Positions 3,034 to 64,000 of a DNA stretch of 64,000 nucleotides are shown piece after piece; positions within the stretch are counted from its first letter, which is position 1; every line of letters starts with the position of its first letter. The stretch comes from Crambe crambe (lineage: Eukaryota; Porifera; Demospongiae; Poecilosclerida; Crambeidae). Below the pieces are notes generated by a model. That model was not told the origin of the DNA and did not search any database. It was given only the letters and a program-made list of their open reading frames with translations. Where the stretch lies: contig OZ004584.1 in the NCBI GenBank assembly GCA_963924555.1, positions 6,943,001 through 7,007,000 of the forward strand, in the 5' to 3' direction. A program made the position numbers and the translations under genes.

Positions 3034-5226
3034 TCAATGCTTCCTCCTCTCTTCTCCCAATGGAACCACATTGGAGTAAATTGTTGCATCAGGTCCAACT
3101 ATTTCAAGTCTCGGAGTTAAAGGAGGAATCTCAGCATAAACTGGCTATTGAAACATAAAGAGAATGATAAATTCAATTATCATAGCTGTGTAGGTATTAG
3201 TCTATCATCACCTCTACTTTACCAACATCTTTAGTAATGGCATATGCACTGTTTTCCTGAATGTGTATTTCTGGGTGATTTTGTCTATCTTGAGCGGTGG
3301 CCACCATTTCAGAAGATCTCTATAATGAATCATCAGAAAGTATGACTAACTTTGGCTTAAGATGATGTTATTTTTGTTAAGAAAGTATGCATGCATCCTT
3401 TCATCATGCCAATGGCAGCCATTTTGGTAAGAGCATAATACAAATTGTGCACCAAAATGGCCTCTGTTGGGATGCATAGTAAAAGGATACATTGTAAACA
3501 CTCAGATCAACTGTAACTAGCTCCATTTGGAGCTAAATGGAAAGAAAGTAAAAATTGCTTTGAGTTCATCAGTAATTATAGCTAGCTAGTTCTTCTTGTA
3601 GCTATGGATACCTCTTCTCTTTGAGGATCCTTAAGCTTGATAACTGTGTACGCACTGTTTTCATGAGTTCGTATCTCAAGGTTTATTACTTCACCAGATG
3701 ATTTTTGGCTATGGTTCCTGCCTGTGGGAGTGTTGTAACATAGCATAAGTGAATCATCATGAATTTGAAAGTGCTATGTAGCTGTCATATTGATCAACTG
3801 TCTAAGCTGTAGTGATATAAATGTAGCTACCATTTTTCATGTGATGTAACCAATAGCAACAGCAAAATGTTGATAGCAGTAGAATGAATGCTAATATGGT
3901 CACCACTGCATGGAAATATAACAATAACAGTGACACGATTCTACCATAATATTTACCAATACCCACAGCAATTATCACATTCAAATACTCAAAGGAGGAG
4001 GAATCTATAGAATAGTATATGATATACATTAGTATATGACATACATTAGTCTATGGTAAGTTAATTCTTACTGATTATAGTCGAAATGATCTTTTGTGTT
4101 GTCATATTAGTTGGGTTACTTTCACTTGGGAAGTACATCACAAGGATAACATTAGATAAATTTCCACCTTCAGTTTCCACATAAACAGTATAGTTGTTCA
4201 CAGATGCATTGAAATATCTGCTACAGTTATTCTCACTGTTCAGAATGAAGTACTGCAACTGATTTAAACTAACTGAGCAGTTGCAATGAGTGTTATTGTC
4301 GTAAACAGTTAATTCTTGGAAGCATACAGATGTCACCTGCAAGAGAATGAGTAGCTAGCATTTTAACCCTTTAGATTAAAAACATACCAAAGATATATTC
4401 AGCTCCAATTCCGAATTAAGTCGTTGTTGTATTTGACCTGCACTAAGGAATATCCCTGAATAAAATTATAACAGTTAGTCACCTACATAATTATGTAGTA
4501 CCCATTAGTTTCATTACCATCATAAAATTCTACATTCCTTGGATCACTAGGAGCCCCTCGACCTACTACATTCACTGCTGTGATTATGAACTGATACTCT
4601 AACACTGATCCAAGGACTGAGTTGTTGGTAGGTAACGTGTAGTGAGGAGCTATGATGGAGCATTGTCCAAGATGGTGAAGTGGAATCTTCTCTCCCTCAG
4701 ATACATTGTACACCTCCACACAGAATGTCATGTCTGGGTCAGTGTTAGTGATGTCCAGGGAGAAGGGAGGCTGCCAAGTCAGGGTGATGGAGGAACAGAT
4801 AATGGAAAAATTGACATCTTTGACTTTATCAAGCAGTCCTATAAGTATCAAAAGTTTAATAATGACTAAGTGATGAGATAATAATTGCTACTTTCCTTGT
4901 ATCTGGACAAAGAACACTTCACCATAGAGTATTGTGGGGTCACTAACATTAAAGATATTATGTCTTTCACATTGGACTACAGAGTTCTGAAATGTTTCAG
5001 TACAGTTCAAATGCAGCATTCGGTGTTCAAATGTAGTGGTGATTCGAGATCGTTCTTCAATAATATTGTTTAATGAGATATTATTGACTGTCCACATGAT
5101 TGCATAATCACCTATAGGTTTGAACTGACAATTGAATTCAGCCACTTGATGTAGGCCACAAATCACTTGTGATGACATGGAACTTTCTGTAGCTAACAAT
5201 AATAATATCACTACCTTTATTATCAT
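3034..5226 (-). CDS. R1: Ig-FN3 receptor, short tail with ITIM/ITSM-like motifs
   Basis: Nine exons read in one frame for about 478 residues: Ig 5226-4896, FN3 4838-4518, linker 4455-4388, second FN3-like 4336-4072, stalk 4004-3957, TM 3905-3831, tails 3721-3612, 3319-3212 and 3144-3034. The signal peptide begins MIIKVVILLLLATESS. The Ig exon has four cysteines and the central tryptophan (IMWTVNN). The FN3 exon shows LTWQPPFSLD and AVNVVGRGAPS. The TM exon ends in a palmitoylation-like CCC before WLHH. The tail has SAYTVI (ITIM consensus), SAYAIT, VYAEI and TIYSNV (ITSM-like TxYxxV), and no enzyme domain. Intron 1 needs a GA donor (see its own entry); the others are GT-AG. No lesion was found, so it is probably functional. 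Ligand unknown; a surface recognition receptor signalling through SH2 proteins is inferred. Closest relative in the window is R13. Confidence 0.85.
4839..4895 (-). other. Intron 1 of R1 with GA donor (GA-AG)
   Basis: This 57-base intron lies between CAAG and GACTG on the minus strand and begins GAAAGT. Only removal from GA to the final AG joins Ig to FN3 in phase 1. The GT four bases further in gives a stop within three codons. The same arrangement is seen in 14 Ig-type exons of the window. Rare GA-AG introns are known elsewhere, for example in vertebrate FGFR genes. Confidence 0.7.
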
Positions 5227-5334
5227 AGTGAATTAGCTACTGTAGGCAACTTGCTTTTACCGAAATTAGTTAGTAGAGCAATAGTTCATGCTCGCGCGTG
5301 CGCGTGCAACATTAATTGCTTATACGCGTGACAT

Positions 5335-7474: not shown

Positions 7475-10026
7475 TCAATGTTTCCTCCTAACCACATTTG
7501 AGTAAAATGTTGCTTCAGGTTCAATTATTTCAACTCTCGGAGTTAAAGGAGGAATCTCAGCATAAACTGGCTATAATAATGTAGATCTATACATGAGAGA
7601 CAAAGTTCTAAGAAAGTTCAATTAGCTAATAGTCACCATCACCTCTACTTTACCAACATCTTTAGTGAGGGCATATGCACTATTTTCTTGAACGTGTATT
7701 TCTGGGTCATTTTGTCTGTCTTTGGCAGTGGTTATCACTTCAGAAGATCTCTTAGGCTATTAGGATAATGAATTCATCATGAAATATGACAACACTTTAT
7801 TAAGATATGCTTAAAATGAACTTTTTTTCCTTTGGATCAAAAAGGAAGACAATAAAACCAGTGATTGTCGCTCTGAGGCTACAATTTCAATGTTCTTCAT
7901 CAATACCTCTTCTCTTTGAGCATCCTTAAGCTTGATAACTGTGTATGCACTGTTTTCATGAGTTTGTATCTCAGGGTTTATTACTTCATCAGATGATTTC
8001 TGGCCGCTATGGTTCCTACCTACATGTTATAGAATTAACGTGAGAGAGAATCCTCATGATAGCTATTGTAAGAGAAACTATCAATTTATGGCAATCACTA
8101 ACTGTCTAAGGAAGTATTATAATAGTCACCACTTTTCACATGATGTAACCAATAGCAACAGCAAAATGTTGATAGCAGTAGAATGAATACAAGCATGCTC
8201 ATCACTGCATGGAAAGATAACAAATTAATAACAGTGAGCGACAAGATTTCACATAGCTACGTAATAATATTTACCAACACCCACAGATACTGCAATTACC
8301 ACATTCGAATGCTCGAAAGAAGAAGAGTCTACACATACGTGGTAAGCAATAACTAACATAGCATCATGGCACAACAGCTGCTTACCAACTGTTGAAAACC
8401 TTTTTTGTGTTATCTTATTATTAGTTGGGTTGTTTTCACTTGGGAAGTACATCACAAGAATAACATTAGATAAACTTCCACCATCAGTTTCCACATAAAC
8501 AGTATAGTTGCTTACAGATGCATTGAAACATCTGCTACAGTTATTCTCATCACTGTTCAAAATGAGGTACTGTAACTGATTCGATGTAACTTGTGCTGGG
8601 CAGCTGCAGTGTGTGTTGTCATCATTATAGTCAAAGTGAATAGTATATTCTTGAAAGCATACAGATGTTACCTGAAATATAATGAATACACCATTTAAAA
8701 TTACCATTAATTATCATGATCACATACCAAAGATATATTCAGCTCCAATTCAGAATCAAACAGTTGTTGTATTTCTCCCTCAGAAATGAATATTCCTGAA
8801 TTAATTTAGTAATCATAATACCAGCTAGCAGTTATTGTAGTACCCATTAGTTTCATTACCATCATAAAATTCTACATTCCTTGGATCACTAGGAACCCCT
8901 CGACCTACTACATTCACTGCTGTGACTATGAACTGATAGTGAAGCATCAGTCCAGAGTTGTTGGTGGGTATTGTGTAGTGAGGAGTCGCAATGGAGCATT
9001 GTCCAAGGTGGTGAAGTGGAATCCTCTCTCCCTTGGATACATTGTACACATCCACACAAAACACCATGTCTGGGTCAGTGTTAGTGATGTCCAAGGAGAA
9101 GGGAGGCTGCCAAGTCACGGTGATGGAGGAACAGTTAATGGAAACATTCACTTCTCTCACTTTAGCAAGTAGTCCTGGAGGAATAAATCTGCTATTAACA
9201 GATAGTGTAAATCATAAGTTAGCTTTCCTTGAATGCGGACTGTAATTAAGTCACCATAAATGATACCAGAGCTTATATTTGCTATATCAAGTACCATACA
9301 CTGAACTGTAACATTTTCATTTTGTTCTGTACAGTTTATCTGAAATTCTTTGAATAATGTTTGCTCTCCAGTTCTTATTTGTAAGGTATTATGGGTGACA
9401 GTCCATAGAATTGCAGGTAGAATTAGAGATGACGTATTCAAGTTGCAATGAAATTCAGCTATTTGATATAAATCACACACCACTTCTACATACATAAGCA
9501 CATTGAAGAGTTTGATTGCTGTGTATAAGCTATTAAAACAATACCTTTTCCTTCCCCTAACTTAATAAATACTAGCATAAGAGCAAAGAAGTATCTTCCT
9601 GCCATAACTATCGAAACTCAAAGATAGATGTAGCTCACTAGTTTAGAAAATAAATGTGAATGATGTAACTAAAATAATTATTATTATAGCTACACCTTGT
9701 ATTTGGATGTGGTATACATCTCCAAGAACATCTGGGTCACTTCGATTGAAGATATTTCGTTTTTTGCATTGAATTGTAGAGCCTTCAAATGTCTGAGTAC
9801 AGTTCAGATTAAGCATCCGATTTCCAATAGTTGTATCAACTCCTTCAATTTGAGATGCTGAGACATTGTTGATCGTCCATTCTATTGCATGTAGACCCAG
9901 TGGGATGAAGTCCAAGGTACAGTTTAATACAACATGTTGATGCAGACCACAAATCACCACCAATGATGCTATCACCATAATAAGACCAATAATTTTAGCT
10001 AATAGCTCTATAGTGGCTAACTTCAT
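7475..10026 (-). CDS. R2: Ig receptor with optional second Ig exon, short tail
   Basis: Exons: Ig1 with signal peptide 10026-9696; an alternative signal exon 9605-9545; Ig2 9485-9228; FN3 9174-8860; linker 8795-8728; second FN3-like 8671-8386; stalk 8328-8275; TM 8204-8130; tails 8019-7907, 7750-7643 and 7570-7475. Every part is open. Ig1 ends with a normal GT donor (CAAG|GTGTAG), whereas Ig2 ends CAAG|GAAAGC. All these junctions are phase 1, so three in-frame products are possible: Ig1-Ig2-FN3 (about 567 residues), signal exon-Ig2-FN3, or Ig1-FN3 with Ig2 skipped. The tail has SAYTVI, SAYALT, VYAEI and TFYSNV, with no death domain. Its start lies 291 bases from the end of R3. The homologous pairs are R7/R8 and R15/R16. 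No lesions seen. Alternative promoters are inferred from the two signal peptides. Confidence 0.82.
9545..9605 (-). CDS. Alternative signal-peptide exon of R2
   Basis: It encodes MAGRYFFALMLVFIKLGEGK, a hydrophobic leader, and ends in phase 1 at a GT donor, the phase needed for the Ig2 exon. R15 has the intact counterpart at 60404-60344. In R7 the ATG at this place is mutated to AAG. Use as a separate first exon is inferred. Confidence 0.6.
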
Positions 10027-10317: not shown

Positions 10318-13300
10318 TTAGGAATATTTTTTTGATAAAGTACACGCCAACTCAAGCTCCTCTATATGACATAAAGCAGCAGTGATTTCTTTGAAGAGAG
10401 CTCTTATCTTGAAGAAGTACTCCAAGGTCTCCTGCAAACATGCCTTATTGCTTTCATTGTTAGTGTAAATCTCATCCTCAAGATCCTCATCAATTCCTAT
10501 CTTCAGTGCAAACTCACTCCACTTCCCGGCAATGGAATATAGATCATGAAACAAATCTTCTGCAGTCACGGGTGGCTTTTCTAAAGGTGTGAAGAAAGTT
10601 AAAGATATTATTGCTAATATTAGTATTCAGCCACTCCAACCTTGGAGCTAAATTTTGGTGCTAAGATAGTTAAATAATTGAATACGTGACCGATATTTTG
10701 GGCAATTTGTTATTCACTGTAAGGTAAGACGGGGCAATTACGAGGGTGGGGTAATTCTATCATTTTATAATTTTTGTTTCTCGACTAGGCCGACTGGAAT
10801 ATCACTATTTTTACAGTGTCGGAATTGCCCCCACCCTCGTAATTGCCCTGCCTAATTACCTTAATGAAAACATGGGATTTCACTGCTCTGCAGTCTTGGT
10901 ATGTAGGGAGTGCGTAGGAAAAGGTACACTGTAAAAACGAAAGTGTGTACTACACACTAAATTGTCACACTAAAAACAAAACAGTGTGTGTATTGGGACA
11001 AAATGGTGTGCAGTAAGCACTTTTGTTTTTACAGTGTACAAGTTGTTAAAATCCTGCTAAAGTTTATAAATAGCTAGCTACTTAATAAAAAAGTTAATCA
11101 TGAAACCTAAAACTTTAAAACAGAGTTCACTTCCATTTGAAGCAAATATTTGGATACCAATTACATCTCTAAAACTTGTTTTTGCTCCAAAATACAATAG
11201 CTACGTAAGGTCCTATAACACACCTGCTGGTTTTGGTTGTGCTTTCATCTCCTCTTTTTCCTTTGGTATTAATTTTCCTGTGAATGGGACTATGTCTGAG
11301 TAAATGACGTTGTTCACTATTATGACACCAGCACTTGAATTAGGATCACTGGTATCTAACTGAGCATATTGACCTGCAAAATTTAAAAGGATAGAGAGGT
11401 AGTTAATTTCAGCTATAAGGACTTAAGGACACTTTATTTGTGGGTACTAAATTTATGTGTCTGTATTTGGTGGGTAGCTCATGATAAAAGATTCGTATGG
11501 CTATATCCAGTTTATGGTTCTTGTTTGTTGTGGTTTTTTGTTTGTTGTTGTTTTTTGTAAATTTTATTATTATTGTGAAATGCTTGACTTGCAGGTACTA
11601 AAGTTGATGCCTCTAGATATTAAGTACCTCTCTTTCATCTGGCATTGGTTTCTTATTTGGTAATAGTGCACTAGAAAATCTGACGTTCGCTACTTCATTA
11701 TCAGCAGTTGAAGTTGATTCAGGATCATCAACTGGAGTGGATAAATCCTGCAAAGAAGAAAATTATCTAATAGCTACTCGAATAATTTTTATGACATCAT
11801 GCCTCATTACTGTGGACTTTGATGATCTGTTCTTCTACAGAAGAATCAGCACTACAGCATGTAGAATTTCTTTTCAAAATGAGCATTGACTCTTCTAGAG
11901 GCTAAATAATGTACGTATGTATACAGTCAAAAACTGAAGAGTTCAGCTAATGTATAGCTACACAATTATTATGGCTAGGGCTAGGGCTAGGGGGCTAGGG
12001 ATAGGGCTAAAGTCTTGTACCTTTCCCTTGCTATCCAGTGGAGGGTGCACTGATTTTAGCAATAAGTATGTACCATCAATTGCTGTGGGGAAATCTTGTG
12101 AGTGGTGCTGAATTTAGACAAAAATTATCATAATTATGAGTATGATTAAATAATTATCATTGAAATACTTAGTTACTTCGATGGCTGAATATGCTATGTT
12201 TGGGGAAGAAGTAGGTCCCACTAATGAGTATTGTGTTGGCTCACTCAGTGTAGGATTACTGCACAAATTCTATAGAAGGAAATATAAACAATGAATCATC
12301 AAACAAAATATAACATGAATTACCGCTTTTTTCATTTCTTTCCTGTGATGTGAGTAGCAGTAAAGTATGAATACCAACATCACTATCACAATACTCATTA
12401 CAACAGCTATAAATAAATGGAAAAAGAACATCTTCGTCTATGCTAGCTAGCTAATGATTGCTACTGTTTAGCTGTAAACCATACTTATTCCAACAGGAAC
12501 TGCAATTGCTACCACATCAAGAGAGTTGGTATACTCAGTACTGCTTGTTCCTACCACTACTGTATAATAGTATAAAAAGAATGTGTTATTAATACCATTA
12601 TAGCTGTAGGAATAAACCTGCACGAAGTTAACATGTACAAAGTACAGTGCAGTAAATTATTTATGTAGCTACAGTTAACCCAATGCTGTACATATAGCTA
12701 CTGGCTGATACGTAGCCATTAGCTAGCTAGCATAGACGAAGATGTTCTTTTTTCCATTTATTTATAGCTGTTGTAATGAGTATATGTAATTGCCCAGATA
12801 AATTTTTGATTTCAAGAAGTTGATTAGATCAATTTTCAGTGTGAAACTATCAATATATGTACGTCATGGGATCATAACATCTGACAACTTGGTATAATAG
12901 CCTGTATAGCAAACTAGACATCATGCAGACATTGCAATGCTTGCCCATCACATCACTAGCTATGAGTTTAAGGTTACACTTTCACCTACTCACTTTCACT
13001 TGTGTATGTTTTCATTGTCATAGTTGGGGTCAGGAGTTTAGTTGGGGTTGGGAGATACACCACTGTAAAATTACTTGAAATGTTTTTGTACTTTGTTTCA
13101 ACATGAAGAACATAGTTTACAAATATGTATGAAATGTTGGGACAATTGCCCGAACCCATGGTAGGATTCTCATCATTGAGAACAAGATATTTAATCCTGT
13201 TCAATGCATCAGTGAGATGTGCAGGAGAACTGCAATGTGTACTACCATCTTTATACTGTATGTAAACAGTCAGGTTTTCAAAGCAGCTTGAAATCTGTGA

Positions 13301-14324
13301 TAGAAATCACACACACATTAATTTTGATCACTTTATATCAAAATTTTTAGCTCCCCATAAAATGAGTGGTCCAAACATTATCATTTTAATTGGAACTCAA
13401 TCTATAATGGTTGCTTTTACACATTAGTTGAACCTTTAGATAACAGTTTGTGAAATGGTAATCAATTTACAATACATAACATACAGCCATCATCAATCCA
13501 GAATCAGATAAGTGTACATCTGGATCATGAAGTCCAATGAAATGATCTACATCATTAAAGATAGTTGTGATTTACTATGAAAATTTATTGCTAACTGCTA
13601 GTTTAATAGTTACAAACTAACCATCATGAAACGTTACATCTATTGGAGCACTGGGAGCTCCTCGACCAACTATATTGACTGCTGTGATTATGAACTGATA
13701 CTCCAACACTGATTCAAGGACTGAGTTGCTGGTCAATAAAGTGTATTGAGAAGCTACAATTGAGCATCGTCCAAGGTGGTGAAGTGGAGTCCTCTCTCCC
13801 TCAGATACATTGTACACCTCCACACAGAATATCATGTCTGGGTCAGTGTTAGTGATGTCCAGGGAGAAGGGAGGTTGCCAAGTCAGGGTGATGGAGGAAC
13901 AGTTAATGGAAACATTCACATCTTTGACTTCATTAAGCAGTCCTATAAGTAGCAAAAGTTTAATAATGACTAAGTAATGAGAAAATAATTGATACTTTCC
14001 TTGTATCTGGACAAAGAACACTTCACCATAGAGTGTGGGATCACTAAAGTTAAAGACATTATATCTTTCACATTGGACTACTGAGTTCTGAAATGTTTCA
14101 GTACAGTTCAAATGCAGCATTCGGTGTTCAAATGTAGTGGTGATTCGAGATCGTTCTTTCATATAGTTTAATGAGATATTATTGACTGTCCACATGATTG
14201 AATAGTCACCTATAGGTTTAAACTGACAATTGAATTCAGCCACTTGATTTAGGCCACAAATCACTTGTGATGACATGGAATTTTCTGTAGCTAACAATAA
14301 TAATATCACTACCTTTATTATCAT
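10318..14324 (-). CDS. R3: Ig-FN3 receptor with ITIM/ITSM tail and death-like domain, one-base deletion
   Basis: Twelve exons: Ig 14324-14000, FN3 13942-13622, linker 13546-13485, second FN3-like 13294-12994, stalk 12556-12485, TM 12406-12324, tails 12269-12177, 12107-12021, 11901-11803, 11747-11628 and 11373-11224, death-like 10580-10318. The tail has TQYSLV (TxYxxV), IAYSAI (ITIM), YLLL and VIYSDIV (ITIM). The death-like exon shows KWSEFALKIGIDEDLEDEIY followed by an ACLQETLEYFF helix. Compared with R8 and R16, the exon at 11373 lacks one base near 11368 (150 instead of 151 bases). This destroys the first ITIM (VKYAQL) and puts the death domain out of frame. Another oddity is a GC donor at 11802-11801 where the paralogs have GT. 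The stop at 10318 is a few codons early relative to R8 and R16. It is either recently inactivated or affected by a sequence error. Two small TIR elements sit in its last intron. Confidence 0.75.
10720..10863. repeat. MITE-like element in R3 intron (family 1)
   Basis: Terminal inverted repeats of about 30 bases (AGGTAA... with GGGGCAATTACGAGGGTGGG) are bounded by TA on each side. A copy is at the same intron position in R8 (37,321-37,458). R16 has an uninterrupted TA at 61,555-61,556, the empty site. Confidence 0.85.
10925..11038. repeat. MITE-like element in R3 intron (family 2)
   Basis: Ends are CACTGTAAAAACGAAAGTG and its inverted counterpart (CACTTTTGTTTTTACAGTG), with flanking TA direct repeats as in Tc1/mariner-type insertions. 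The partner is in R8 at 37,520-37,643. The R16 intron shows the empty TA near 61,624. Confidence 0.85.
11972..12009. repeat. Short (GGGCTA)n repeat in R3 intron
   Basis: A few units of GGGCTA, partly degenerate. The homologous intron of R16 carries a related run near 62,574-62,600. It is too short and internal to be a telomere. Confidence 0.8.
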
Positions 14325-14479: not shown

Positions 14480-15433
14480 TCTCTCCATGTTTCCAGGACA
14501 TTTGAAATAATGGCTTCAAGATATATAGCATTGGTTTCACTATAAGTTTCATCTTCAAGGTCTCTAGCTAATTTATTTGCAAACTTACTCCATTGGGAAC
14601 GAGATCTTCAGTAACATTTGCAGCAGTGAAAGGCTTTTTGTAAGAATAATAATCACTGGTTTATCCACTATATTCAAATCCCTCCCCCTTCATTAAGAGT
14701 ACCCCTTTTTAACCACAATTAAATCTTACCTTCTTCTTCTTCTTTAGGTTCTATAGCAATGTACTAGCTAGCTACAACTTTTAGATTGCTCTTTGGTGGC
14801 ATATCAAGTTTAAAATTTGAGGGAACTAGCTCAGTAAGTTACATCTGTGTATCACTTTTCAATCCCAAAAATAATTGGAGATGAACACAAGAGGTTTCTC
14901 TATAGCTAGATGAATCAATCATCATGAGTAATAAGAGCTATACCTCACTACTCAAAGAATATAGCTGGGTGAATTAAGCTTGTGGTTGCAGGTACGGGGT
15001 CATCTTGAGTATAAATGCACACTCTGCAAACTAAATAAAAGCATATTATCCATTCTCAAAATGGCTAGCTATGTCAAAAAGCAACCATGAATGTACACAA
15101 TAATAATTATGTTTCAACAAAACATTTCATGAATCTTATTCAATCTTCAAGTCAAAACTCTTTCAGTATTGTAACAATAACAAAAACAACACATTTTGGA
15201 AAAATAGTTAGCTCCAAGTTACTCATCACTAGGTCAGGTGGATCATGGGACTATAATTTTGACTTTAATATGCTCCCTATGCAAGGTGTAGAGAAATTGA
15301 CGATATCTCATGAAGAATATAGCTACGTATGACTCAGATCTTAGAGCTACAGTGACTAGGACCTATAGATCACCAACTACAATAGTAACACACAGCAACA
15401 ACAATAACAAATGAAAGATAATGTCCATCTTTA
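14480..15433 (-). pseudogene. Relic death-domain receptor tail upstream of R3
   Basis: At 14,480-14,640 a decayed death-like exon is recognisable by comparison with R10. At 14,700-15,030 are decayed tail exons homologous to R10 exons at 46,028-46,317 (for example the CAAGATGACCC...GTACC stretch). A leader-like frame of about 20 residues (MDIIFHLLLLLLCV...) starts near 15,433. No ectodomain exons are detectable. The same relic occurs at 5.3-6.3 kb, and part of it in the inverted arm near 25.0-25.4 kb. Confidence 0.55.
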
Positions 15434-15920
15434 TAATTATAATTATAGCTACAGTATACAGATTATCTGATAGCTACTAGTTTATTTTTCAGTATATGCC
15501 ACTGCAAAGAAAGTATTGTAGAGCATATGCATGTTTTATGTGTGCATGGCTATTATTCAGGACTTGATCAAATGATCATTCAGGTTCCCAGAACATACGT
15601 AGATAACAGTCATTGGAAAGCCATGCACGCATGACTAACTCATATATTTCATGATTTTATTTTCTATATCAATAATCGTCCCAATTAATAGTAGCTATTG
15701 CTAGATAATAATAGCTACTGCAAACATTGATTGCTGTTTGTATAGCTCTTTCTCCCATCCCTAAAGCAAATCATGGCATAGTTATCTAAGGATTTTTCAA
15801 AGTGCAGTGAAAGCATCCACATTCAATATCACACAATCATTAAATTTTAGCTACACTAATTTGATTACAGTATAACAGTCAGCTTTTGTATAATTTGTAT
15901 GTATGTAAACAGTGTCATTG

Positions 15921-19149
<3,229 letters not shown>

Positions 19150-21912: not shown

Positions 21913-21943
<31 letters not shown>

Positions 21944-37519: not shown

Positions 37520-37643
37520 TATCACTGTAAAAATGAAAGTGTGTACTGCACACTAAACTGTCCCAATACACACACAAAAACAAAAACAGTGTGTGTATTG
37601 GGACAAAATGGTGTGCAGTAAACACTTTCATTTTTACAGTGTA
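37520..37643. repeat. MITE-like element in R8 intron (family 2)
   Basis: Same position as 10,925-11,038 of R3. Ends are CACTGTAAAAATGAAAGTG and its inverse. Its interior differs by a small insertion. Confidence 0.85.
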
Positions 37644-40600: not shown

Positions 40601-40905
40601 TCTTTCACATTGGACTACAGAGTTCAAAAATGTTTCAGTACAGTTCAAATGCAGCATTCGGTGTTCAAATGTAGTGGTGATTTGAGATCGTTCTTTAATA
40701 ATATTGTTTAATGAGATATTATTGACTGTCCACATGATTGAATAATCACCTATAGGTTTAAACTGACAACTGAATTCAGCTACTTGATGTAGGCCACAAA
40801 TCACTTGTGATGACATGGAACTTTCTGTAGCTAACAATAATAATATCACTACCTTTATTATCATAGTGAATTAGCTACTGTAGGCAACTTGCTTTTATCG
40901 AAATT

Positions 40906-51405: not shown

Positions 51406-53504
51406 TTATTGTTGAACTCTCAATGCTCCCTCAAATGGAACCACATTTGAGTAAAATGTTGCAGGTCCAACTATTTCAACTCTCGGAGATAAAGGAGGAA
51501 TCTCAGCATAAACTGGCTATAATAATTATGTGGAAACATGAGAGACAAAGTTCTAAGAAGTTCAATTAGCTAATAGTCACCATCACCTCTACTTTACCAA
51601 CATCTTTAGTGACGGCATATGCACTGTTTTCTTGAATGTGTATTTCTGGGTCATTTTGTCTGTCTTTGGCAGTGGTTATCACTTCAGAAGATCTCTTAGG
51701 CTATTAAGGATAATGAATTCATCATGAAGTATGACGACACTTTATTAAGATATGCGCTTTTTTTCTGAAATAGACCTTATCAAAAAGGAAGATCAGTGAT
51801 TGTCACTCTGAGGTTACAATTTCAACGTTCTTCATCAATAGTATAGCCATACCTCTTCTCTTTGAGCATCCTTAAGCTTGATAACTGTGTATGCACTGTT
51901 TTCATGAGTTCGTATCTCAAGGTTTATTACTTCATCAGATGATTTCTGGCCATGATTTCTGCCTACATGTTATAGAATTAACGTGAGAGTGTTATAACAG
52001 AATCCTCATGATAGCTATTATGATAGCAACTATCAATTTATGGCAATCACTAACTGTCTAAGGAAGTATTATAATAGTTACCATTTTTCACATGATGTAA
52101 CCAATAGCAACAGCAAAATGTTGAGAGCAGTAGAATGATGCTCATCACTGCATGGAAAGGTAACAAATTAATAACAGTGAGCAACAAGATTATGTAATAA
52201 TATTTACCAACACCCACAGATACTGCAAGTACCACATTCAAATGCTCGAAAGAAGAAGAGTCTACACATGAGTGGTAAGTAAGTTGCAATAACTATCATA
52301 GCATCATAGCATAACAGCTGCTTACCAACTGTTGAAAAGATTTTTTGTGTTGTCATATTAGTTGGGTTACTTTCTCTTGGGAAGTACATTACAAAGATAA
52401 CATTAGATAAACTTCCATCATTAGTTTCCACATAAACAGTATAGTTGTTCACAGATGTATTGAAACATCTGCTACAGTTATTCTCATCACTGTTCAAAAT
52501 GAGGTACTGTAACTGATTCGATATAACTTGTGCTGGGCAGGTGCAGTGTATGATGTCATCATTGTAGTCAAAGTGAATAGTAAATTCTTGAAAGCATAAA
52601 GATGTTACCTGAATAATAACCATTATTAAAGACATCAATTATCACGATCACATACCAAAGATATATTCAGCTCCAATTCAGAATTAAACAGTTGTTGTAT
52701 TTCTCCCTCAAAAATGAATATTCCTATATTAATTTAGCAATCATAATACCAGCTAGAAGCTATTGTACGTAGGTACCCATTAGTTTCATTACCATCATAA
52801 AATTCTACATTCCTTGGATCACTAGGAGCCCCTCGACCTACTATATTCACTGCTGTGACTATGAACTGATAGTGAAGCATCAGTCCAGAGTTGTTGGTAG
52901 GTATTGTGTAGTGAGGAGTCACAATGGAGCATCGTCCAAGGTGGTGAAGTGGAGTCCTCTCTCCCTCAGATACATTGTACACCTCCACACAGAATGTCAT
53001 GTCTGGGTTAGTGTTAGGGATGTCCAGGGAGAAGGGAGGCTGCCAAGTTAGGGTGATGGAGGAACAGTTGCTGGAGACTCTCAGATCACTAACTCTTTCT
53101 AGGAATCCTGTATTGCACAATTAGCTATGTCGCATAAACTATATTAACTATAGCTACTTTCCTTGTATGCGAAGATTAAAGGGATTTCCATATAAATCAG
53201 TTGAGGTCATTCTACCAAATCTAACACACTGGACTAATGAATTATTACGTCCAGCACTGCAGTATAGATGAAGTACACTGTCTTCAGATCTGTCTATCAT
53301 ATCTCCATTCACTCCATCTTCTAAGGTGGCATTGTTGAGATGCCAATCAGTGAATATATGTATAGCAGAGTATGGTGATATACATTCGAACTCAGCTGTT
53401 TCATTTAGACCACATACCACCTTTGAGGTAACTTGTCCTGAAATGAATAATCCAAACTGCAACAGAGAAATAGAGGCAATGAAAACCACTCTACTTCTTG
53501 ACAT
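51406..53504 (-). CDS. R12: chimeric Ig-FN3 receptor, short tail
   Basis: Nine exons in one frame, about 485 residues: Ig 53504-53162, FN3 53107-52793, linker 52723-52656, second FN3-like 52608-52326, stalk 52261-52208, TM 52147-52082, tails 51962-51853, 51694-51587 and 51516-51406. The Ig exon (leader MSRSRVVFIASISLLQFGLF, NNSLVQCVRFG) is of the R4/R10 type. FN3 and everything downstream are of the R1/R13/R15 type, so an ectodomain swap has happened at the Ig-FN3 intron. The TM exon is nine bases shorter than in relatives (MSIILLLSTFCCCYWLHH) but in frame. The tail has SAYTVI, VYAEI and TFYSNV, with a different C-terminal end (EGALRVQQ). No lesions; probably active. Intron 1 begins GAAAGT. 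Confidence 0.83.
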
Positions 53505-53539
53505 AGCTAGCTATTTCTATAGATGCTGCAAATAGTGAT

Positions 53540-54353: not shown

Positions 54354-56552
54354 TCAATGCTTCCTCCTCTCTTCTCCCAGTGGAACCACATTGGAGTAAA
54401 ATGTTGCATCAGATGCAACTATTTCAACTCTTGGAGTTAAAGGAGGAATCTCAGCATAAACTGGCTATTGAAACATGAAAGAGAACAATAGATTCAATTA
54501 TTGTAGCTATGTAGCATTAATCTATCATCACCTCTACTTTACCAACATCTTTAGTAATGGCATATGCACTATTTTCCTGAGCGTGTATTTCTGGGTGATT
54601 TTGTCTATCTTGAGCAGTGGACACCATGTCAGATGATCTCTATGATGAATGATCAATCATCAGAAAGCATGACTACACTTGTATAATTCTAGCATTTGCA
54701 TACATCCTTTCACCATACCAATTGTGCACCAAAATGGCTGCCGTTGGGATGCATAGTAAACACTCAGATTAACTGTAGCTAACTATGATAGCCATTGGGG
54801 GCTAAATGGAAAGAAATTAAAATTTGCTCTCTGAGTTCATCGATTATAGCTAGCCAGCTCAGATACCTCTTCTCTTTGAGCATCCTTAAGCTTGATAACT
54901 GTGTATGCACTGTTTTCATGAGTTCGTATCTCAGGGTTTATTTCTTCATCAGATGATTTTTGGCCATGATTCCTGCCTGTGGGAGTGTTGTAACATAGCA
55001 TAAGTGGATTTGAAAATGCTAGCTGTCATATTGATCAAATATCTAAGCTGCAGTGATGTATGGACAAGTTATAAATACCTTTTTTCTTATGATGTAACCA
55101 ATAGCAACAGCAAAATGTTGATAGCAGTAGAATGAATGCTAATATGGACACCACTGAGTGGAATATATGATATATTAATGGTAACAATATCAGTGATACG
55201 ATTCTACATTTACCAATACCGACAGCAATTATTAAATTCAAATGTTCAAAAGAGGAGGAGTCTACAATAGAATATATATAAGTCCATGGTAGTTACGGTG
55301 AGTAGTTATCAGAGCTGCAGTTGCTTACTAATTATAGTTGAACTGTTTCTTTGTGTTGTCATATTAGTTGGGTTACTTTCACTTGGGAAGTACATCACAA
55401 GGATAACATTAGATAAACTTCCACCATCAGTTTCCACATAAACAGTATAGTTGTTCACAGATGCATTGAGACATCTGCTACAGTTATTCTCACTATTCAG
55501 AATGAAGTACTGCAACTGATTCAAACCAACTGAGCAGTTGCAATGAGTGCTATTGTCATGGTTAATGTGAACAGTTAATTCTTGGAAGCATACAGATGTC
55601 ACCTACAAGAGAATGAGTAGCTAGCATTAACCCTTTTGACTAAGTTTTTTAAATTTTAAACATACCAAAGATATATTCAGCTCCACTTCCAAATTAAATT
55701 GTATTTGACCCACACTAAGGAATACCCCTGAATAAAATTAATCATCACAGTAACAGTTAGTCACCTATACATACATATGTAGTGCCCATTAGTTTCATTA
55801 CCATCATAAAATTCTACATTCCTTGGATCACTAGGAGCCCCTCGACCTACTACATTCACTGCTGTGACAATGAACTGATAGTGAAGCATCAGTCCAGAGT
55901 TGTTGGTAGGTATTGTGTAGTGAGGAGTCACAATGGAGCATCGTCCAAGGTGGTGAAGTGGAGTCCTCTCTCCCTCCGATACATTGTACACTTCTACACA
56001 GAATGTCATGTCTGTGTCAGTGTTAGGGATGTCCAGGGAAAAGGGAGGCTGCCAAGTCAGAGTGATGGAGGAACAGTTGATGGAAGTATCCACTTCTCTC
56101 ACTTCAACAAGCAATCCTAAGATATTATTATAAAAATAAACATCAGTTACTAGCTATAATTATAACTTTCCTTGTATCTGAAGGTTATATACATCACCAA
56201 GAAGATGTTGACTGAAGTCAAAAAAGTTCACTCTTTCACACTGAATTCTGGAGTCATTATACATTTCTGAACAGTTTATATAAAGTACTCTATTTTCTGT
56301 CACAACTCCTTCCAAGGTATCTGAGGATGAATTGTTGATTTTCCATCGAATGACTAACCCACTTACTGGATCTGGATCTAAACTACAGTTGAGTACAATC
56401 ATTTCATATAGGCCACAAATAACTTGTGATCCTGCGATGATAATAAAAATAATTATGCTTGATGATTTCAGCTCACAGAAAATACCTTCAATTGCACCTA
56501 AATCGACTAGAAGAAGTAGCATAAAGGCATATCCACTCATTTTAAGTAGCAA
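54354..56552 (-). CDS. R13: Ig-FN3 receptor, short tail with ITIM/ITSM-like motifs
   Basis: Ten exons, about 476 residues: signal 56552-56486, Ig 56431-56171, FN3 56116-55802, linker 55727-55666, second FN3-like 55602-55329, stalk 55261-55214, TM 55153-55079, tails 54976-54867, 54639-54532 and 54464-54354. The leader (MSGYAFMLLLLVDLGAIEG) sits in its own exon ending GAAG|GTATTT, unlike R1, where leader and Ig share an exon. The start may be 56552 or the ATG four codons on. The Ig exon is distinct from all others (CGLYEMIVLNC, IRWKINN). FN3, TM (STFCCCYWLHH) and tail (SAYTVI, VYAEI, TFYSNV) are close to R1. No lesions. The Ig-FN3 intron begins GAAAGT (donor at 56,170). Confidence 0.84.
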
Positions 56553-57020: not shown

Positions 57021-57770
57021 AGTTCCCTGCCCCCCCCCCCCCCCCCCCCCCAACTTCAGATCATACATGCACTCTATACTGCCCCTTGACCTACTACATT
57101 CACTGCTATGAACTGATAGTGAAGCATCAGTCCAGAGTTGTTGGTACGTAGGTATTGTGTAGTGAGGAGTCACAATGGAGCATCGTCCAAGGTGGTGAAG
57201 TGGAGTCCTCTCTCCCTCAGATACGTTGTACACCTCCACACAGAATGTCATGTCTGGGTCATTGTTAGGAATGTCCAGGGAGAAGGGAGGCTGCCAAGTC
57301 AGAGTGATGGAAGAACAGTTGATGGATACACTCACTTCCCTCACTTGATCTAATAGCCCTGTTAGCAGCCAAGACAACAATAACAAATAAACAAGAACTA
57401 TACAACCACAACAACGGACAATAGCTATATAATACAGCTGCTTTCCTTGTATCTGAACATAGAAAGCATCACCAGGAACATTTGGTACACTTGGATCAGT
57501 AACATGAACTTCTTCACACTGAACTGTGGAGTTATCTAATTCTTCAGTACAGTTCAGAGAGAGAATTCGGGTGTCTCACATTCCAACAATTCCTTCATAA
57601 ATCTCATTATTGATTGTCCATGTTATGATGGTTCCTGTGAGTGGCATGAAGTCCAAGGTACATTCAAATTCAGCTCGTTGATGTAGGCCACAAATTATCA
57701 CTGATACACCCTGCACTGTTTCATCACTAAAAAGGACCAGAAGTATATATATAGCTCTAGTATATCTCAT
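57021..57770 (-). pseudogene. R14: truncated Ig + FN3 fragment
   Basis: Ig exon about 57,770-57,446 (leader MRYTRAIYILLVLFSDETVQ) carries an in-frame TGA after GIVGM near 57,576; the frame beyond it is otherwise open to IQG. FN3 starts at 57,358 and matches R15 until about 57,130, then breaks (TIPTYQQLWT) and ends in a poly-C tract at about 57,030-57,051. No further exons follow. Same leader subfamily as R6 and R11. Confidence 0.78.
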
Positions 57771-58283: not shown

Positions 58284-60759
58284 TCAATGCTCTTCTCCCA
58301 ATGGAACTACGTTTGAGTAAAATGTTGCATCAGGTCCAACTATTTCAACTCTCGGAGTTAAAGGAGGAATCTCAGCATAAAATGGCTATGTGGAAACATG
58401 AACATTCAAGGAAATTCATTTAGTTAATAGTCACCATCACCTCTACTTTATCATCTTTAGTGACAGCATATGCACTGTTTTCTTGAATATGTATTTCTGG
58501 GTCATTTTGTCCATCTCGGGTAGTGGTTATCACTTCAGAAGATGTCTGCATGAGGATAATGAATTCATCATGAAGTATGAATTAAGATATGGTGGTCACT
58601 ATTAGCTATAACTTTATTTCCTGAAATAGACCTTTGGATCAAAAATAAAGTAAGAAATTATAGTGATTGTCGCTTTGAGGCTCCAATTTCAATGTTCTTC
58701 ATCAATAGTTATAAACATGTACATGTACCTCTTCTCTTTGAGCATCCTTAAGCTTGTTAACTGCATACGCACTGTTTTCAAGAGTTTGTATCTCAGGGTT
58801 TATTACTTCATCAGATGATTTCTGGCCATGGTTCCTGCCTATATATATGTGATATATAGAATCATGAGAATGTTATACGTAGATACATATGAGAGAAACT
58901 ATAAATTTATGGCAATCACTAACCGTTACCACTTTTCACATGATGTAACCAATAGCAACAGCAAAATATTGATAACAGTAGAATGAATACAAGCATGCTC
59001 ATCACTGCATGGAAAGGTAGCAAATTAATAACAGTGAGCGACAAGATTTCACATAGTAATAATATTTACCAACACCCACAGATACTGCAATTACCACATT
59101 CAAATGCTCGAAAGAAGAAGAGTCTACACATGATTGGTAAGTATAAGTTGCTTTAACTGTCATAACATCATAGCACAACAGCTGCTTACCAACTGTTGAA
59201 AAGCTTTTTTGTGTTATCTTATTAGTTGGGTTGTTTTCACTTGGGAAGTACATCACAAGGATAACATTAGATAAAATTCCACCATCAGTTTCCACATAAA
59301 TAGTATAGTTGTTCACAGATGCATTGAAACATCTACTGCAGTTATCCTCATCACTATTCAGAATGAGGTACTGCAACTGATTCAAGTCAGTGGTTACTTG
59401 TGCTGGGCAGCTGCAATGTGTGTTATCATCATTGTCGTCAAAGTGAATAGTAAATTCTTGAAAGCATAAAGATGTTACCTGAAATATAATGAATACCATT
59501 TAAAATTACCATTAATTTTATCACGATCACATACCAAAGATATATTCAGCTCCAATTCAGAATTAAACAGTTGTTGTATTTCTCCCTCAAAAATGAATAT
59601 TCCTGAATTAATTCAGCAATCATAATACGTACCGGTTAGCAGCTATTGTAGGTACCCATTAGTTTCATTACCATCATAAAATGTTATATTCCTTGGATCA
59701 CTAGGAGCTCCTCGACCTACTACATTCACTGCTGTGACTATGAACTGATAGTGAAGCATCAGTCCAGAGTTGTTGGCAGGTATTGTGTAGTGAGGAGTCA
59801 CAATGGAGCATTGTCCAAGGTGGTGAAGTGGAGTCCTCTCTCCCTCAGATACATTGTACACCTCCACACAGAATGTCATGTCTGGGTCAGTGTTAGGGAG
59901 GTCCAGGGAGAAGGGAGGCTGCCAAGTCAGGGTGATGGAGGAACAGTTGATGGAAATATTCACTTCTCTCACTTTATCAAGTAGCCCTGCAGTATAATTT
60001 GGATCAGCTAACACATGCATCTCTGAGAGCTATATAGCTACGTAGTTAGCTTTCCTTGAATACGGACTGTAATTAGGTCACCATAAATGATTAAATTTGC
60101 TGTATCAAGTACCATACACTGAACTGTAACATTTTCATACTCTTCTGTACAGTTTATCTGAAATTCTTTTTTAAATGATATTTGCTCTCCAGTTATTCTT
60201 TGTGACAGTCCATAGAATTGAAGGTTGAATTAGAGATGACAAGTTCAAGTTGCAATGAAATTCAGCTATTCGATATAAACCACACACCACTTCTACATAA
60301 GCATAGCATATTTCATTCAGAGCTACTGTATCATCGCCAATACCTTTTCCTTCCCCTAGCTTAATAAGTACTAGCATAAAAGCAAAGAAGTATCTTCCTG
60401 CCATAACTATCGAAGCTCAAAGATAGATGTAGTTTAGAAAATAAAATGTGAATGATGTAACCAAAAATTAGCTATACACCTTGTATTTGGATGTGGTATA
60501 CATCTCCAAGAACATCTGGGTCACTTCGATTGAAGATATTTCGTTTCTTGCACAGAATTGTAGAGCCTTCAAATGTCTGAGTACAGTTCAGATTAAGCAT
60601 TTGATTTCCAATAGTTGTATCAACTCCTTCAATTTCAGATGCTGAGACATTGTTGATTGTCCATTCTATTGCATGTGGACCCAGTGGGATGAAGTCCAAG
60701 GTACAGTTTAATACAACTCGTTGATGCAGACCACAAATCACCAATGATGCTATCACCAT
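58284..60759 (-). CDS. R15: Ig-FN3 receptor, short tail, with decayed second Ig exon
   Basis: Exons: Ig1 60759-60480, signal exon 60404-60344, Ig2 60292-60055, FN3 59986-59672, linker 59602-59535, second FN3-like 59478-59190, stalk 59123-59070, TM 59004-58930, tails 58838-58729, 58545-58441 and 58385-58284. Ig2 has a deletion that shifts the frame (238 bases, stop soon after ILWTVTKNN), so the signal-exon route cannot give a receptor. Ig1 joined directly to FN3 is in phase 1, uses the GT donor at 60,479 and gives about 465 residues with no lesion. The tail has SAYTVI, FYAEI and TFYSNV. It starts 374 bases from the end of R16. The first ATG of the R2-type leader is ATT here, so the leader is short (MVIASLVICGL) and its secretion signal is doubtful. 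Confidence 0.76.
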
Positions 60760-61133
60760 AATAAGACCAGTAATTTTAGCTACATAGTAGCTAACTTCAA
60801 TAGGTAGCTACTTGAACTATAGCATACCTTTACTGATGTCAACCACATTATTAATCAACATTAAAATGATTGCCAATATGGTGCCAGTGCAGTCATCCAT
60901 TGATAATATTATCAGTAGCTAATGTATATACATCATGAAACTGTTTATACAGGTATATTATGGCTAGTTATGTATTTATCATGGTGAACTATAGTGTGCT
61001 ATATTTGGAGTTGCCACAACTGTTTGTATAAATACACAACTTGTCATCAAAACAAAATTTATTTTTATGTTAAAACTATTAATAATGTTCTAATAATTGA
61101 CACAACTGATAAGTGTCTTGGCTACGTAGCTAG

Positions 61134-64000
61134 CTACACCGATTCTGATACTTGGGAATATTTTTTTGATAAAGTGCATGCCAACTCATGCTCCTCTATA
61201 TGACATAAAGCAGCAGTGATTTCTTTGAAAGGAGCTCTTCTCTTGAAGAAGTACTCCAAGGTCTCCTGCAAACATGCCTCATTGCTTTCATTGTTAGTGT
61301 AAATCTCATCCTCAAGATCCTCATCGATTCCTATTTTCAGTGCGAATTTACTCCACTTTCCAGCAATGGAATATAGATCATGAAATAAATCTTCTGCAGT
61401 CACAGGTGGCTTTACTAAAGGTGTGAAGAAAGTTAACAGATATAATTTTCAGCCACTCCATACTGAATCCAGTAACCTCATAGCTAAATTTGGGTGCTAC
61501 GTAAGACAGTTAAATCATTGAACATGCATGTGACTGATATTCTTTGTTGTTCACTAATGAAAACATGGGATTCTACTGCTTTGCAATCTTGGTAGCTATA
61601 TATAAGGAGTGCTTGGGAAAAGGTACGCACAAGTTGTAAAAATCCTGCTAAAGTTTATAAATAGCTAGCTACTTAATAATCATGAAACCTAAAACTTTGA
61701 AGCTGAAATTATTGATTTTAGTTCCATTTGAAGCAAAAATAATAGCTAATTGGATACCAATTACATCTCTAAAACTTGTTTTTGCTCCCAATTGTATACA
61801 GTAGCTAAGGTCCTATAATGCACCTGCTGGTTTTGGTTGTGCTTTCATCTCCTCTTTTTCCTTTGGTATTAATTTTCCTGTGAATGGGACTATATCTGAG
61901 TAAATGACATCGTTCACTACTATGACACCAGCACTTGAATTAGGATCCCTGGTATCTAACTGAGCATACTTGACCTGCAAAATTTAAAATTTTCAGCTAA
62001 TTACCTTAATTAAGGACTTAAGGACACTTTATTGTGGGTACTAAATTTAGGTATCCTGTGGGTAGCTCATGATAAAAGGCTATATCCAGCTTATGGTATG
62101 TTTTTATTGTTATTGTTTGTCGTCTTTTTTGTTGTTGTTATTTGTCTTCTAATTTCACCATAAATATTGTGAAATTTTTGACTTGCAGGTAGCTACTAAA
62201 GTTGATGCCTCTCAATATTCCCTAATATTAAGTACCTCTCTTTCATCTGGCATTGGTTTCTTATTTGGTAATAGTGCACTAGAAAATCTGACGTTCCCTA
62301 CTTCATTATCAGCAGTTGAAGTTGATTCAGGATCATCAACTGGAGTGGATGAATCCTGTAAAGAAGAAAATTATCTAATACTCCCATGATTATTACATGA
62401 CTCATACCTCATTACTGTGGACTTTGATGAATTGTTCTTCAACAGAAGAATCTGCACTACAACATGTAGAATTTCTTTTCAAAGTGAGCATCAACTCTTC
62501 TAGAGGCTGGTAAAGTGAAAATAATGTGCAATCAAAAACTGAAGAGTTCAGCTAATATATATCTACATAATTACTAGGGCTAGGGCTAGGGATAAGGCTA
62601 AAATCTATTGTATAAGACGAGTCTTGTACCTTTCCCTTGCTATCCAGTGGAGGGTGCACTGGTTTTAGCAATGAGTATGTACCATCAATTGCTGTGGGAA
62701 AATCTTGTGAGTGGTGCTGAAAATTACCATAATTATGAATAATATTATGATGATATCATTGAAATACTTAGTTACTTCGATAGTTGAATATGCTATGTTT
62801 GGGGAAGAAGTAGGTCCCACTAAAGAGTATTGTGTTGGCTCACTCAGTGTAGGATTACTGCACAAATTCTACAAAAGGAATAAACAAATAAAAAAATTAA
62901 CAATCATCAAACAAAAAACAACTTTGTAAAGTATAACATGAATTACCACTTTTTTCATTTCTTTCCTGTGATGTGAGTAGTAGTAAAGTATGAATGCCAA
63001 CATCACTATCACTATGCTCATCACAACAGCTATAAAAAAGTGGAAAAAGAACATCTTTGTCTATGCTAGCTAGCTCTAATGATATAGCTACTGTTTAGCT
63101 GTAAATCATATGTACCTATTCCAACAGGAACTGCAATTGCTACCACATCAAGAGACTCAGTACTGCTTGTTCCTAATAATAGTATAAAAAGAATGTGTTA
63201 TTAATACCATTATAGCTGTAGGAATAAACCTGCATGAATTAACATGTACAAAGTACAGCGCAGTAAAACAATAATATTTATGTAGCTACAGTTAACCCAA
63301 TGCTGTATATAGCTATTGGCTGATAGTAGCTAATTGCCCATATAAATTTTTGATTTTGAGAAGTTGATAAGATCAACTTTCAGTGTGAAACTATCAATAG
63401 CTATATGTATGTAATTGGATCATAACATCTGATAGCTTGGTATAGTAGCCTGTATAGCAAGCTAGACATCATGCAGACATTGCAATGCTCGCCCCATCAA
63501 TCACTAGCTATGAGTTGAAGTCTTACACTTTCACTTTCACTAAAATCTATAATAAGTCCCTACTCACTTTCACTTGTGTATGTTTTCATTATCATAGTTG
63601 GGGGTGGGTGTGTAGTTGGGGTTGGGAGATACACCACTGTAAAATTACTTGAAATGTTTTCGTACTTCGTTTCAACATGAAGAACATAGTTTACAAGTAA
63701 GTATGAAATATTGGGACAGTTATCCGAACTCATGGTAGGATTCTCATCATTGAGAATGAGATGTTCAATCCTGTTCAATGCATCAGTGAGATGTGCAGGA
63801 GAGCTGCAATGTGTACTACCATCTTCATACTGTATGTGAACAGTCTGATTTTCAAAGCAGCTTGAAATCTGTGCAGAAATCACACACACATTCATTTTGG
63901 CCACTTCATATCAAAATTTAATTTTAGTTCCCTGGTCCAAACATTATGGAACTTAATTGATCTATAATGGTTGCTTTCACACATTAGTTGAACACATAAG
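61134..64000 (-). CDS. R16: death-domain receptor, 5' part outside window
   Basis: Visible exons: second FN3-like 63868-63568, stalk 63172-63116, TM 63029-62947, tails 62868-62776, 62716-62630, 62506-62408, 62355-62236 and 61974-61824, death-like 61414-61134. All are in frame (424 codons with stop). Ig, FN3 and linker exons must lie beyond 64,000. The tail is the best-preserved long tail in the window: TQYSLV (TxYxxV), IAYSTI (ITIM), TYSLL, VKYAQL (ITIM) and VIYSDI (ITIM), then a death-like domain (KWSKFALKIGIDEDLEDEIY, ACLQETLEYFF, EEHELACTLSKKY). Neither MITE of R3/R8 is present, and the introns show the uninterrupted TA sites. It is the reference for lesions in R3 and R8. Confidence 0.8.
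62574..62600. repeat. Short GGGCTA repeat in R16 intron
   Basis: About three degenerate units at the same intron position as the longer run in R3 (11,972-12,009). Confidence 0.7.

Follow-up and report, generated by a model that had tools for sequence, protein, structure and literature searches.

The stretch of DNA analysed here (the window, 64,000 nucleotides) covers C6:6943001-7007000, i.e., 6.943-7.007 Mb of chromosome 4 (C6) of the encrusting poecilosclerid demosponge Crambe crambe (odCraCram1.1), and carries 16 loci of a family of receptor genes (Table 1). Their exons follow a common order, in which a leader, an immunoglobulin (Ig) exon, a fibronectin type III (FN3) exon, a linker exon, a third domain, a stalk, a transmembrane (TM) exon and tyrosine-bearing tail exons succeed one another and, in classes C and D, are followed by a Death-type domain. 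Chaining of exon matches assigns six of the loci to class A, three to class D and two to class C, five being left without a class. The genome searched comprised 143,139,886 bases in 119 contigs, of which C9, C11, C12, C13 and C18 denote chromosomes 6, 8, 9, 10 and 15; the published Crambe crambe assembly is given as 143.20 Mb in 124 scaffolds (PMC12166358). A preliminary description of this DNA had claimed about 16 paralogous loci, which agrees with the count from exon chaining, and a shared plan of which the leader, Ig, FN3, TM and tyrosine tails are found in one chain of 476 amino acids (aa); the third domain, which it had called FN3-like, gave no FN3 match by profile, fold or Pfam. Three features had been overlooked: the six intact Death-type exons, a linker exon that separates FN3 from the third domain, and the absence of GT at the 5′ splice site after most Ig exons.

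The class A model at locus 1 (5226-3034) consists of nine exons encoding 476 aa without an internal stop, window position 3034 being the last base of its stop codon. For class D, a model at C6:6656202-6652785 encodes 656 aa in 12 exons, again without an internal stop. Three of the four class D copies modelled, with splice sites picked by program to preserve the frame and GT-AG required, give one open chain, the end of the first tail exon being doubtful in two of these three. For FN3 exons, Pfam gives 8.6e-5, which does not reach the curated cut-off, and 3.7e-7, which does. The Ig exon is weak in Pfam, with an I-set match at 0.2 in one of two exons tried and no match in the other; its structure model (predicted local distance difference test, pLDDT, 76.8) has 65 Protein Data Bank (PDB) matches at E ≤ 1e-3, and the 50 listed all contain Ig by title, the best being MuSK Ig1-2 (3e-5). 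The model of the third domain, built without the linker exon, reached a pLDDT of 54.2 and yielded no PDB match at E ≤ 1e-3, three exons gave no match to a beta-sandwich family in Pfam at E ≤ 1, and the third-domain profile showed no similarity to that of the FN3 exon. Comparing profiles, modelling the fold and searching with it thus gave nothing in favour of FN3, although the fold model was poor; an FN3 identity of the third domain is not supported. Submission of the two full models, class A and class D, to Pfam (E ≤ 1) returned fn3 and three weak hits below cut-off, with no kinase, phosphatase, Calx-beta or VWD domain listed in either.

Sequence diversity is distributed very unevenly over these exons. 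From the window and from the 200 kb upstream (C6:6570001-6770000), 32 genes with an intact membrane-proximal Ig and an intact FN3 exon were compared, the membrane-proximal Ig alone being used in genes with two. Synonymous divergence (dS) in FN3 is below 0.25 in 163 of the 496 gene pairs; dS is higher in Ig than in FN3 in 142 of these 163 close pairs and exceeds 0.7 in Ig in 87 of them. The medians are 0.83 for Ig versus 0.15 for FN3 in dS, and 0.44 versus 0.89 in aa identity. Clustered at 70% identity, 41 intact Ig exons fall into seven lineages and 41 FN3 exons into two. The FN3 tree is incompatible with the Ig data, and the Ig tree with the FN3 data (Shimodaira-Hasegawa test, p-SH 0; approximately unbiased (AU) test, p-AU 2.3e-5 and 2.4e-4, from 5000 resamplings, which are few for the AU test according to the program's own warning), and this mutual rejection speaks for exchange or conversion of single exons close to where Ig and FN3 adjoin. 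The pooled ratio of nonsynonymous to synonymous differences (pN/pS) in close pairs is below 1 in every exon type, with 0.20 for Death-type exons, the lowest among the exon types compared, 0.35 for the first class A tail and 0.56 for Ig, and it is 0.45 and 0.38 in the two FN3 lineages; the pairs are non-independent and no significance is claimed for these ratios.

The cytoplasmic tails, by comparison of intact exons (tA1 16, tA2 14 and tA3 15 in class A; nine each of tD1, tD2 and tD5 in class D; two tyrosine columns each in tA3, tD1 and tD5), have tyrosine columns that are invariant in every copy examined. An immunoreceptor tyrosine-based inhibitory motif (ITIM), taken as a cytoplasmic [SIVL]xYxx[ILV] after a single TM, is present as SAYxxI in 15 of 16 tA1 exons, the remaining one reading SAYAVN, and as SAYAVI in 9/9 class C tC1 exons. 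In tA3, YAEI and T[FI]YxNV each occur in 15/15 copies; tD1 carries T[QH]YSLV and a second site, YSxI, both in 9/9; YxxL is found in 9/9 tD2 exons; and each of nine tD5 exons has two YxxPhi sites. More ITIM or immunoreceptor tyrosine-based switch motif (ITSM) sites are present in tA3, tD1 and tD5. With one representative tail per class and 20,000 shuffles, 5/5 tyrosines of the class D tail of locus 3 lie in YxxPhi, where shuffling yields 1.01 on average (P 0.0005; for ITIM alone, P 0.037). Its tD1 pair, YSLV-x9-YSAI, has by eye the spacing of an immunoreceptor tyrosine-based activation motif (ITAM), the definitions of this and related motifs being the customary ones. The class A tail is best described as putatively tyrosine-only: it contains a single ITIM (SxYxxI), a single ITSM-like site (TxYxxV) and more conserved tyrosines.

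An enzyme of the kind that reads such tails is encoded in the same genome. At C18:6539084-6540942, scans with the SH2 and phosphatase families detect two SH2 domains and a protein tyrosine phosphatase (PTP) domain in the order SH2-SH2-PTP, and the stretch of the C-terminal SH2 has matches to PTPN11 (1.3e-57) and PTPN6 (2e-48); the domain order together with the PTPN11 match shows that an SHP-type, SHP-2-like reader is present. Further regions with matches to such families were noted. A group of 32 SH2 matches in 240 kb (C5:1417826-1656255), many of them paired 400-750 bp apart, might represent a tandem-SH2 family able to read tails of this type. At C9:1486691-1487997 and C9:1555325-1557672, Death and SH2 matches lie within 1-2 kb of each other on one strand and may be SH2-Death adaptors, and FN3 and tyrosine-phosphatase matches occur together at C9 ~2.3-3.5 Mb and C12 ~0.07-0.39 Mb, possibly as large expansions of receptor-type phosphatases.

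Six intact Death-type exons are located in the window (loci 3, 4, 5, 8, 10 and 16). Three of them, those of loci 4 and 5 (both class C) and of locus 10, exceed the curated Pfam cut-off for Death. Loci 4 and 5 also contain a TM exon, and a cytoplasmic Death domain on a TM receptor is predicted for class C. The three class D exons do not reach the cut-off (Table 1). Class D is nevertheless counted as Death-type because the exon of locus 3, which is 91-94% identical to those of the other two class D loci, resembles the above-cut-off exon of locus 10 (56% identity); the class D Death domain is thus a weak match or one assigned by similarity only.

Table 1. Receptor loci of the window (window positions; values under Remarks are Pfam E-values for Death)
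Locus	Class or state	Span	Strand	Exons	Remarks
1	A, intact 9-exon model	3034..5226	-	Ig 5226-4896; FN3 4838-4518; linker 4455-4388; third domain 4336-4072; stalk 4004-3957; TM 3905-3831; tails 3721-3612 (SAYTVI), 3319-3218 (SAYAIT), 3144-3034 (VYAEI, TIYSNV, stop)	one open chain, 476 aa
2	A, two Ig exons	7481..9984	-	Ig 9694-9984, 9226-9495; FN3 8858-9175; third domain 8420-8671; stalk 8276-8329; TM 8101-8208; tails 7907-8023, 7649-7750, 7481-7570	tblastn exon matches
3	D	10321..14324	-	Ig 13998-14324; FN3 13620-13934; third domain 13019-13294; stalk 12480-12560; TM 12324-12407; tails tD1-tD5 12171-12269, 12021-12107, 11800-11901, 11628-11747, 11225-11374; Death-type 10321-10581	exon matches; 0.12, below cut-off
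4	C	14506..19125	-	Ig 18778-19125; FN3 18411-18722; third domain 17557-17772; TM 16750-16845; tail 16460-16564 (SAYAVI); Death 15924-16193	6.4e-6, above cut-off; additional weak Death fragments 14506-14636
5	C, strand opposite to other loci	20121..23423	+	Ig 20121-20471; FN3 20538-20849; third domain 21587-21805; TM 22575-22670; tail 22770-22877; Death 23154-23423	4.1e-5, above cut-off
6	only Ig-FN3	32569..33360	-		exon matches
7	A, two Ig exons, stop inside second	33965..36486	-		exon matches
8	D, third-domain exon across two frames	36911..40864	-	Death-type 36911-37168	exon matches; no match at E ≤ 1; Death-type exon 91% identical to that of locus 3
9	remnant: third domain and broken Ig	44796..45347	-		exon matches
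10		45560..49195	-	Ig 48854-49195; FN3 48487-48798; third domain split into two parts, 47691-47907; incomplete tail resembling tD5, 46065-46163; Death 45560-45826	4.8e-6, above cut-off
11	partial Ig	49686..50754	-	FN3 50178-50486; partial Death match 49686-49862	exon matches
12	A	51439..53480	-		exon matches
13	A	54384..56423	-		exon matches
14	Ig-FN3 remnant, stop present, FN3 split	57080..57662	-		exon matches
15	A, second Ig in two pieces	58305..60765	-	distal Ig 60478-60765	exon matches; first tail exon SAYAVN, not an ITIM
16	D, continues beyond window	61155..63868	-	Death-type 61155-61412	0.014, below cut-off

The window is one section of a larger cluster. Exon-match chaining in the 200 kb upstream gives 41 loci, 13 of class A, six of class D, seven of class C and 15 without a class. 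A set of Ig, FN3, third-domain, TM and first tail exons, each full-length and stop-free, is present in 9 of the 16 window loci and in 13 of the 41 upstream; among the nine, two have a second, broken Ig and locus 3 is apparently out of frame further down its tail, where the frame of tD5 differs by eye from that of the sibling exon at 61825-61971. An FN3 query finds at least 87 genome matches at 75% identity or more, all on C6 and 82 of the 87 within 6.586-7.340 Mb (150 of 195 candidates scored), and 20 further class C-type FN3 matches (50-58% identity) lie in the same interval, so that the cluster comprises ~100 FN3 exon matches over 0.75 Mb. The third-domain query finds 99 genome matches, 99/99 on C6; both counts refer to exons, fragments included. 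One FN3 match, C6:7007201-7007524, is situated just beyond the window edge next to locus 16. Remoter FN3 relatives (~34-56% identity) form further groups at C6:7.72-7.90 Mb, C13:1.63-1.90 Mb and C10:3.71-3.74 Mb, and the opposite edge of the window (6-1640, minus strand) is occupied by a retroelement open reading frame (ORF) with a reverse transcriptase (Pfam RVT_1, 3.8e-10).

Copy number could in principle be inflated by the assembly, part of the duplicated blocks being uncollapsed haplotypes rather than separate genes. C6:6845133-6848456 is 100.000% identical to window positions 3016-6339 over 3324 bp at a distance of ~100 kb, which may mean that some of the copies arose very recently or were left uncollapsed, and the Crambe assembly is described as not fully phased, with 18 haplotypic duplications taken out (PMC12166358). 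Against this, identity is 90-98% in the other long blocks on the list, whether these link the window to the 200 kb upstream or pair sequences inside those 200 kb, and the reported consensus quality is QV 58.1 (PMC12166358). Inflation of this kind seems improbable, and uncollapsed haplotypes would alter the counts while leaving the receptor architecture as it is.

Read together, these genes probably constitute a large tandem family of single-pass contact receptors in which a diversified Ig module is combined with two kinds of output, one using tyrosine motifs only and the other tyrosine motifs plus a Death domain. In the mechanism proposed, the membrane-distal Ig exon or exons would supply the variable ligand-binding module, carried on a conserved stalk made up of FN3 and the third domain. 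A few old Ig lineages would have come to sit on two homogenized stalks through duplication in tandem, combined with recombination or gene conversion close to where the Ig and FN3 exons meet. Upon ligand contact, the tails would be phosphorylated by Src-type kinases. A SHP-2-like phosphatase would then dock at the ITIM/ITSM sites of class A and convey a restraining signal. The presence of Death-type exons changes the mechanism for the other classes: C and D are predicted to be death-linked receptors, whose chains would elicit a signal of the cell-death or NF-kB type under the control of their own tyrosines, and class A to consist of tyrosine-only receptors.

Several observations weigh against this reading. 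Joining Ig to FN3 requires a non-GT splice site in 44 of the 52 Ig exons that extend to their 3′ end in 264 kb, so that splicing itself is a prediction. At the phase-1 boundary these 44 exons end in CAAG|GA (e.g., at window 4890-4900), the GA form being mostly GAAAG, and the other 8 of 52 end in CAAG|GT, all eight matching the distal-Ig type best. The introns of locus 1 were placed at GT-AG sites apart from that between Ig and FN3, which is GA-AG. In the gene models the GA boundary is the join found that holds FN3 in frame, and its exact cut is ambiguous because an AGGA repeat is present at both ends; in-frame joining seems to require a GA-AG type intron. Furthermore, in the five Ig lineages of at least four members pN/pS amounts to 0.53, 0.93, 0.46, 0.41 and 1.11, i.e., it is below 1 in four of five, which argues against general positive selection on Ig exons. 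Such selection is not claimed here, since 15-codon windows with values >1 are scattered and carry no significance test. The tA2 tyrosine fits no motif scanned in 14/14 copies (SAYxxT 13/14, SAYxxH 1/14), and enrichment in the class A tail, represented by locus 2, is modest (YxxPhi 3/4 tyrosines, P 0.025; ITSM, P 0.049; ITIM alone, P 0.21). Finally, Pfam detects no Death domain at E ≤ 1 in the 656-aa chain of class D, and a profile search of the PDB with the Death alignment retrieved no Death domain.

Parts of this architecture recur in several known systems. Vertebrate ITIM/ITSM receptors, a group comprising the KIR, SLAM, CEACAM and Siglec types, likewise combine an Ig ectodomain with ITIM/ITSM-like tails, the similarity being at the level of the fold: the best PDB sequence match of the Ig profile is CEACAM1 (7.4e-4), and the Ig structure model matches CD244/2B4 at 6.6e-5. 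To our knowledge, the combination of FN3 and Death is absent from these receptors. Death receptors such as TNFR, p75NTR and UNC5 share with class C of the Crambe family a TM chain and a predicted C-terminal cytoplasmic Death domain; they differ in that Pfam finds no TNFR repeats, TSP1 or ZU5 in the class D full model, and in that the tyrosine motifs of the Crambe chains precede the Death domain. Sponge aggregation factors are characterized by Calx-beta and VWD domains, which, like a kinase domain, are missing from the Pfam results for the two full models. The family is thereby distinguished from the aggregation factors and the Ig-bearing receptor tyrosine kinase of Geodia, earlier sponge molecules considered in connection with self/non-self (PMC5450542, PMC12018476). 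The Alr genes of Hydractinia are similar in being clustered, in encoding single-pass receptors of the Ig superfamily whose ectodomains are diverse, and in including many apparent pseudogenes (PMC11067881), and Alr candidates also have ITIM/ITAM-type motifs (PMC12065747); by description rather than by sequence, the Crambe family adds the FN3 stalk, the third domain and, in classes C and D, the Death-type domain. The preliminary description had pointed to an Alr-like logic, to diversity concentrated in the Ig exon and to tyrosine-motif tails, and all three are borne out by clustered paralogues with diverse Ig ectodomains, conserved tails and many broken copies (PMC11067881, PMC12065747). Botryllus FcoR is comparable as a large clustered type I family with a variable Ig first and with ITIM, hemITAM and core YxxI/L/V tails (PMC12065747), but FcoR differs in its sushi and two C2 Ig domains, no sushi being detected in the two Crambe models (Pfam, E ≤ 1), and Crambe classes C and D carry the Death-type domain. 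By analogy, the Crambe family may thus work like the Alr and FcoR complexes and the ITIM receptors, although it does not appear to belong to FcoR.

A relative of the FN3 module was encountered outside animals. Scanning of prokaryote genomes with FN3 gave three hits, one of them credible, at L049:4575-5648 (plus strand) of strain Hp36, an isolate from Halichondria panicea (PMC6955870). The hits on L050 (31 residues) and L051 (weak, in a bacterial-looking contig) were dropped, and a scan of viral contigs with the FN3 alignment found no relative. The FN3 part of the Hp36 protein scores 4.7e-11 against the profile and reaches a best local score of 127 versus a maximum of 48 in 300 shuffles, scored against every third target; its Ig-like part (49 versus 57) and third part (32 versus 45) are not significant, and the idea that the whole protein mirrors the receptors was rejected since significance is confined to FN3. 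Within the Crambe genome the protein has at least 92 matches, 86 on C6 and 74 of them within 6.58-7.34 Mb, and the best 20 all fall in the receptor cluster (114 of 163 candidates scored); within its own genome it has one match. The FN3 module may have passed from host to bacterium. The start of the Hp36 protein looks leader-like by eye, and the neighbouring ORF (7199-9523) has an F-box match (8.3e-8). In Crambe, C14:122697-123206 (minus strand) contains a single 252-aa open frame with 29% identity to residues 23-207 of the Hp36 protein (E 2.7e-4).

As to what the receptors recognize, self/non-self discrimination and recognition of microbes are equally open, and each is put forward tentatively. 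In allorecognition, Ig alleles or gene content would mark individuals, match or mismatch would decide between fusion and rejection, and the Death-bearing chains would execute rejection by apoptosis. Apoptosis has reportedly been studied in Microciona prolifera allografts, and proapoptotic DD2 in sponge allograft rejection. The mosaic Ig/FN3 histories fit such a role, candidate allorecognition genes of Hydractinia and Botryllus are clustered diverse Ig receptors with ITIM-type tails (PMC11067881, PMC12065747), and sponge grafts show replicable outcomes that are attributed to a polymorphic genetic system (PMC5450542); that four of the five Ig lineages tested have a pooled pN/pS below 1 speaks against such a role. 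Innate receptors diversified against bacterial or other non-self, or facing symbionts, rather than conspecifics, explain the same receptor anatomy. This alternative is as open as allorecognition because of the FN3 relative in a sponge-derived bacterium, whose best Crambe matches lie in the cluster, and capture of a host receptor module by a symbiont would suit a microbe-facing use; Death-domain outputs are also common in innate sensing. However, the likeness is significant in the FN3 part alone, and the Hp36 case is one gene in one bacterium.

The view that these are ordinary adhesion or developmental receptors, tandemly expanded and with an Ig divergence that reflects old paralogy without a recognition role, agrees with pN/pS values below 1 in all exon types and in most Ig lineages, and with the long 90-98% identical blocks as signs of recent duplication. 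It appears rather unlikely, given that the Ig exons have been separated for long while stalk and tails stay alike, and that ITIM/ITSM-type motifs, like Death domains, are signalling equipment typically seen in receptors of the immune type. Equally speculative is a histocompatibility and immune complex of ~100 loci confined to one chromosome, in which inhibitory-type receptors (class A) and death-linked ones (classes C/D) would share swappable Ig exons, self and symbionts would be spared and non-self killed, and the Hp36 FN3 would have been captured to interfere; as a whole, this scenario is doubtful.

A literature search, with most subscription journals outside its scope, found no description of this receptor family, which is weak evidence of novelty, and the accessible parts of the literature on sponge graft discrimination name no settled receptor. 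Judged from its genes, the probable contact-receptor family of Crambe is a strong candidate, and one open to testing, for a gene complex of recognition or immunity in sponges. The cluster, mapped at chromosome scale and provided with open gene models, constitutes a direct target for work on sponge graft recognition. Immunoreceptor-type tyrosine signalling and Death-domain signalling usually reside on separate receptors. Tyrosine motifs and a Death domain on one chain would join these two signalling routes, and would do so in an early-branching animal.

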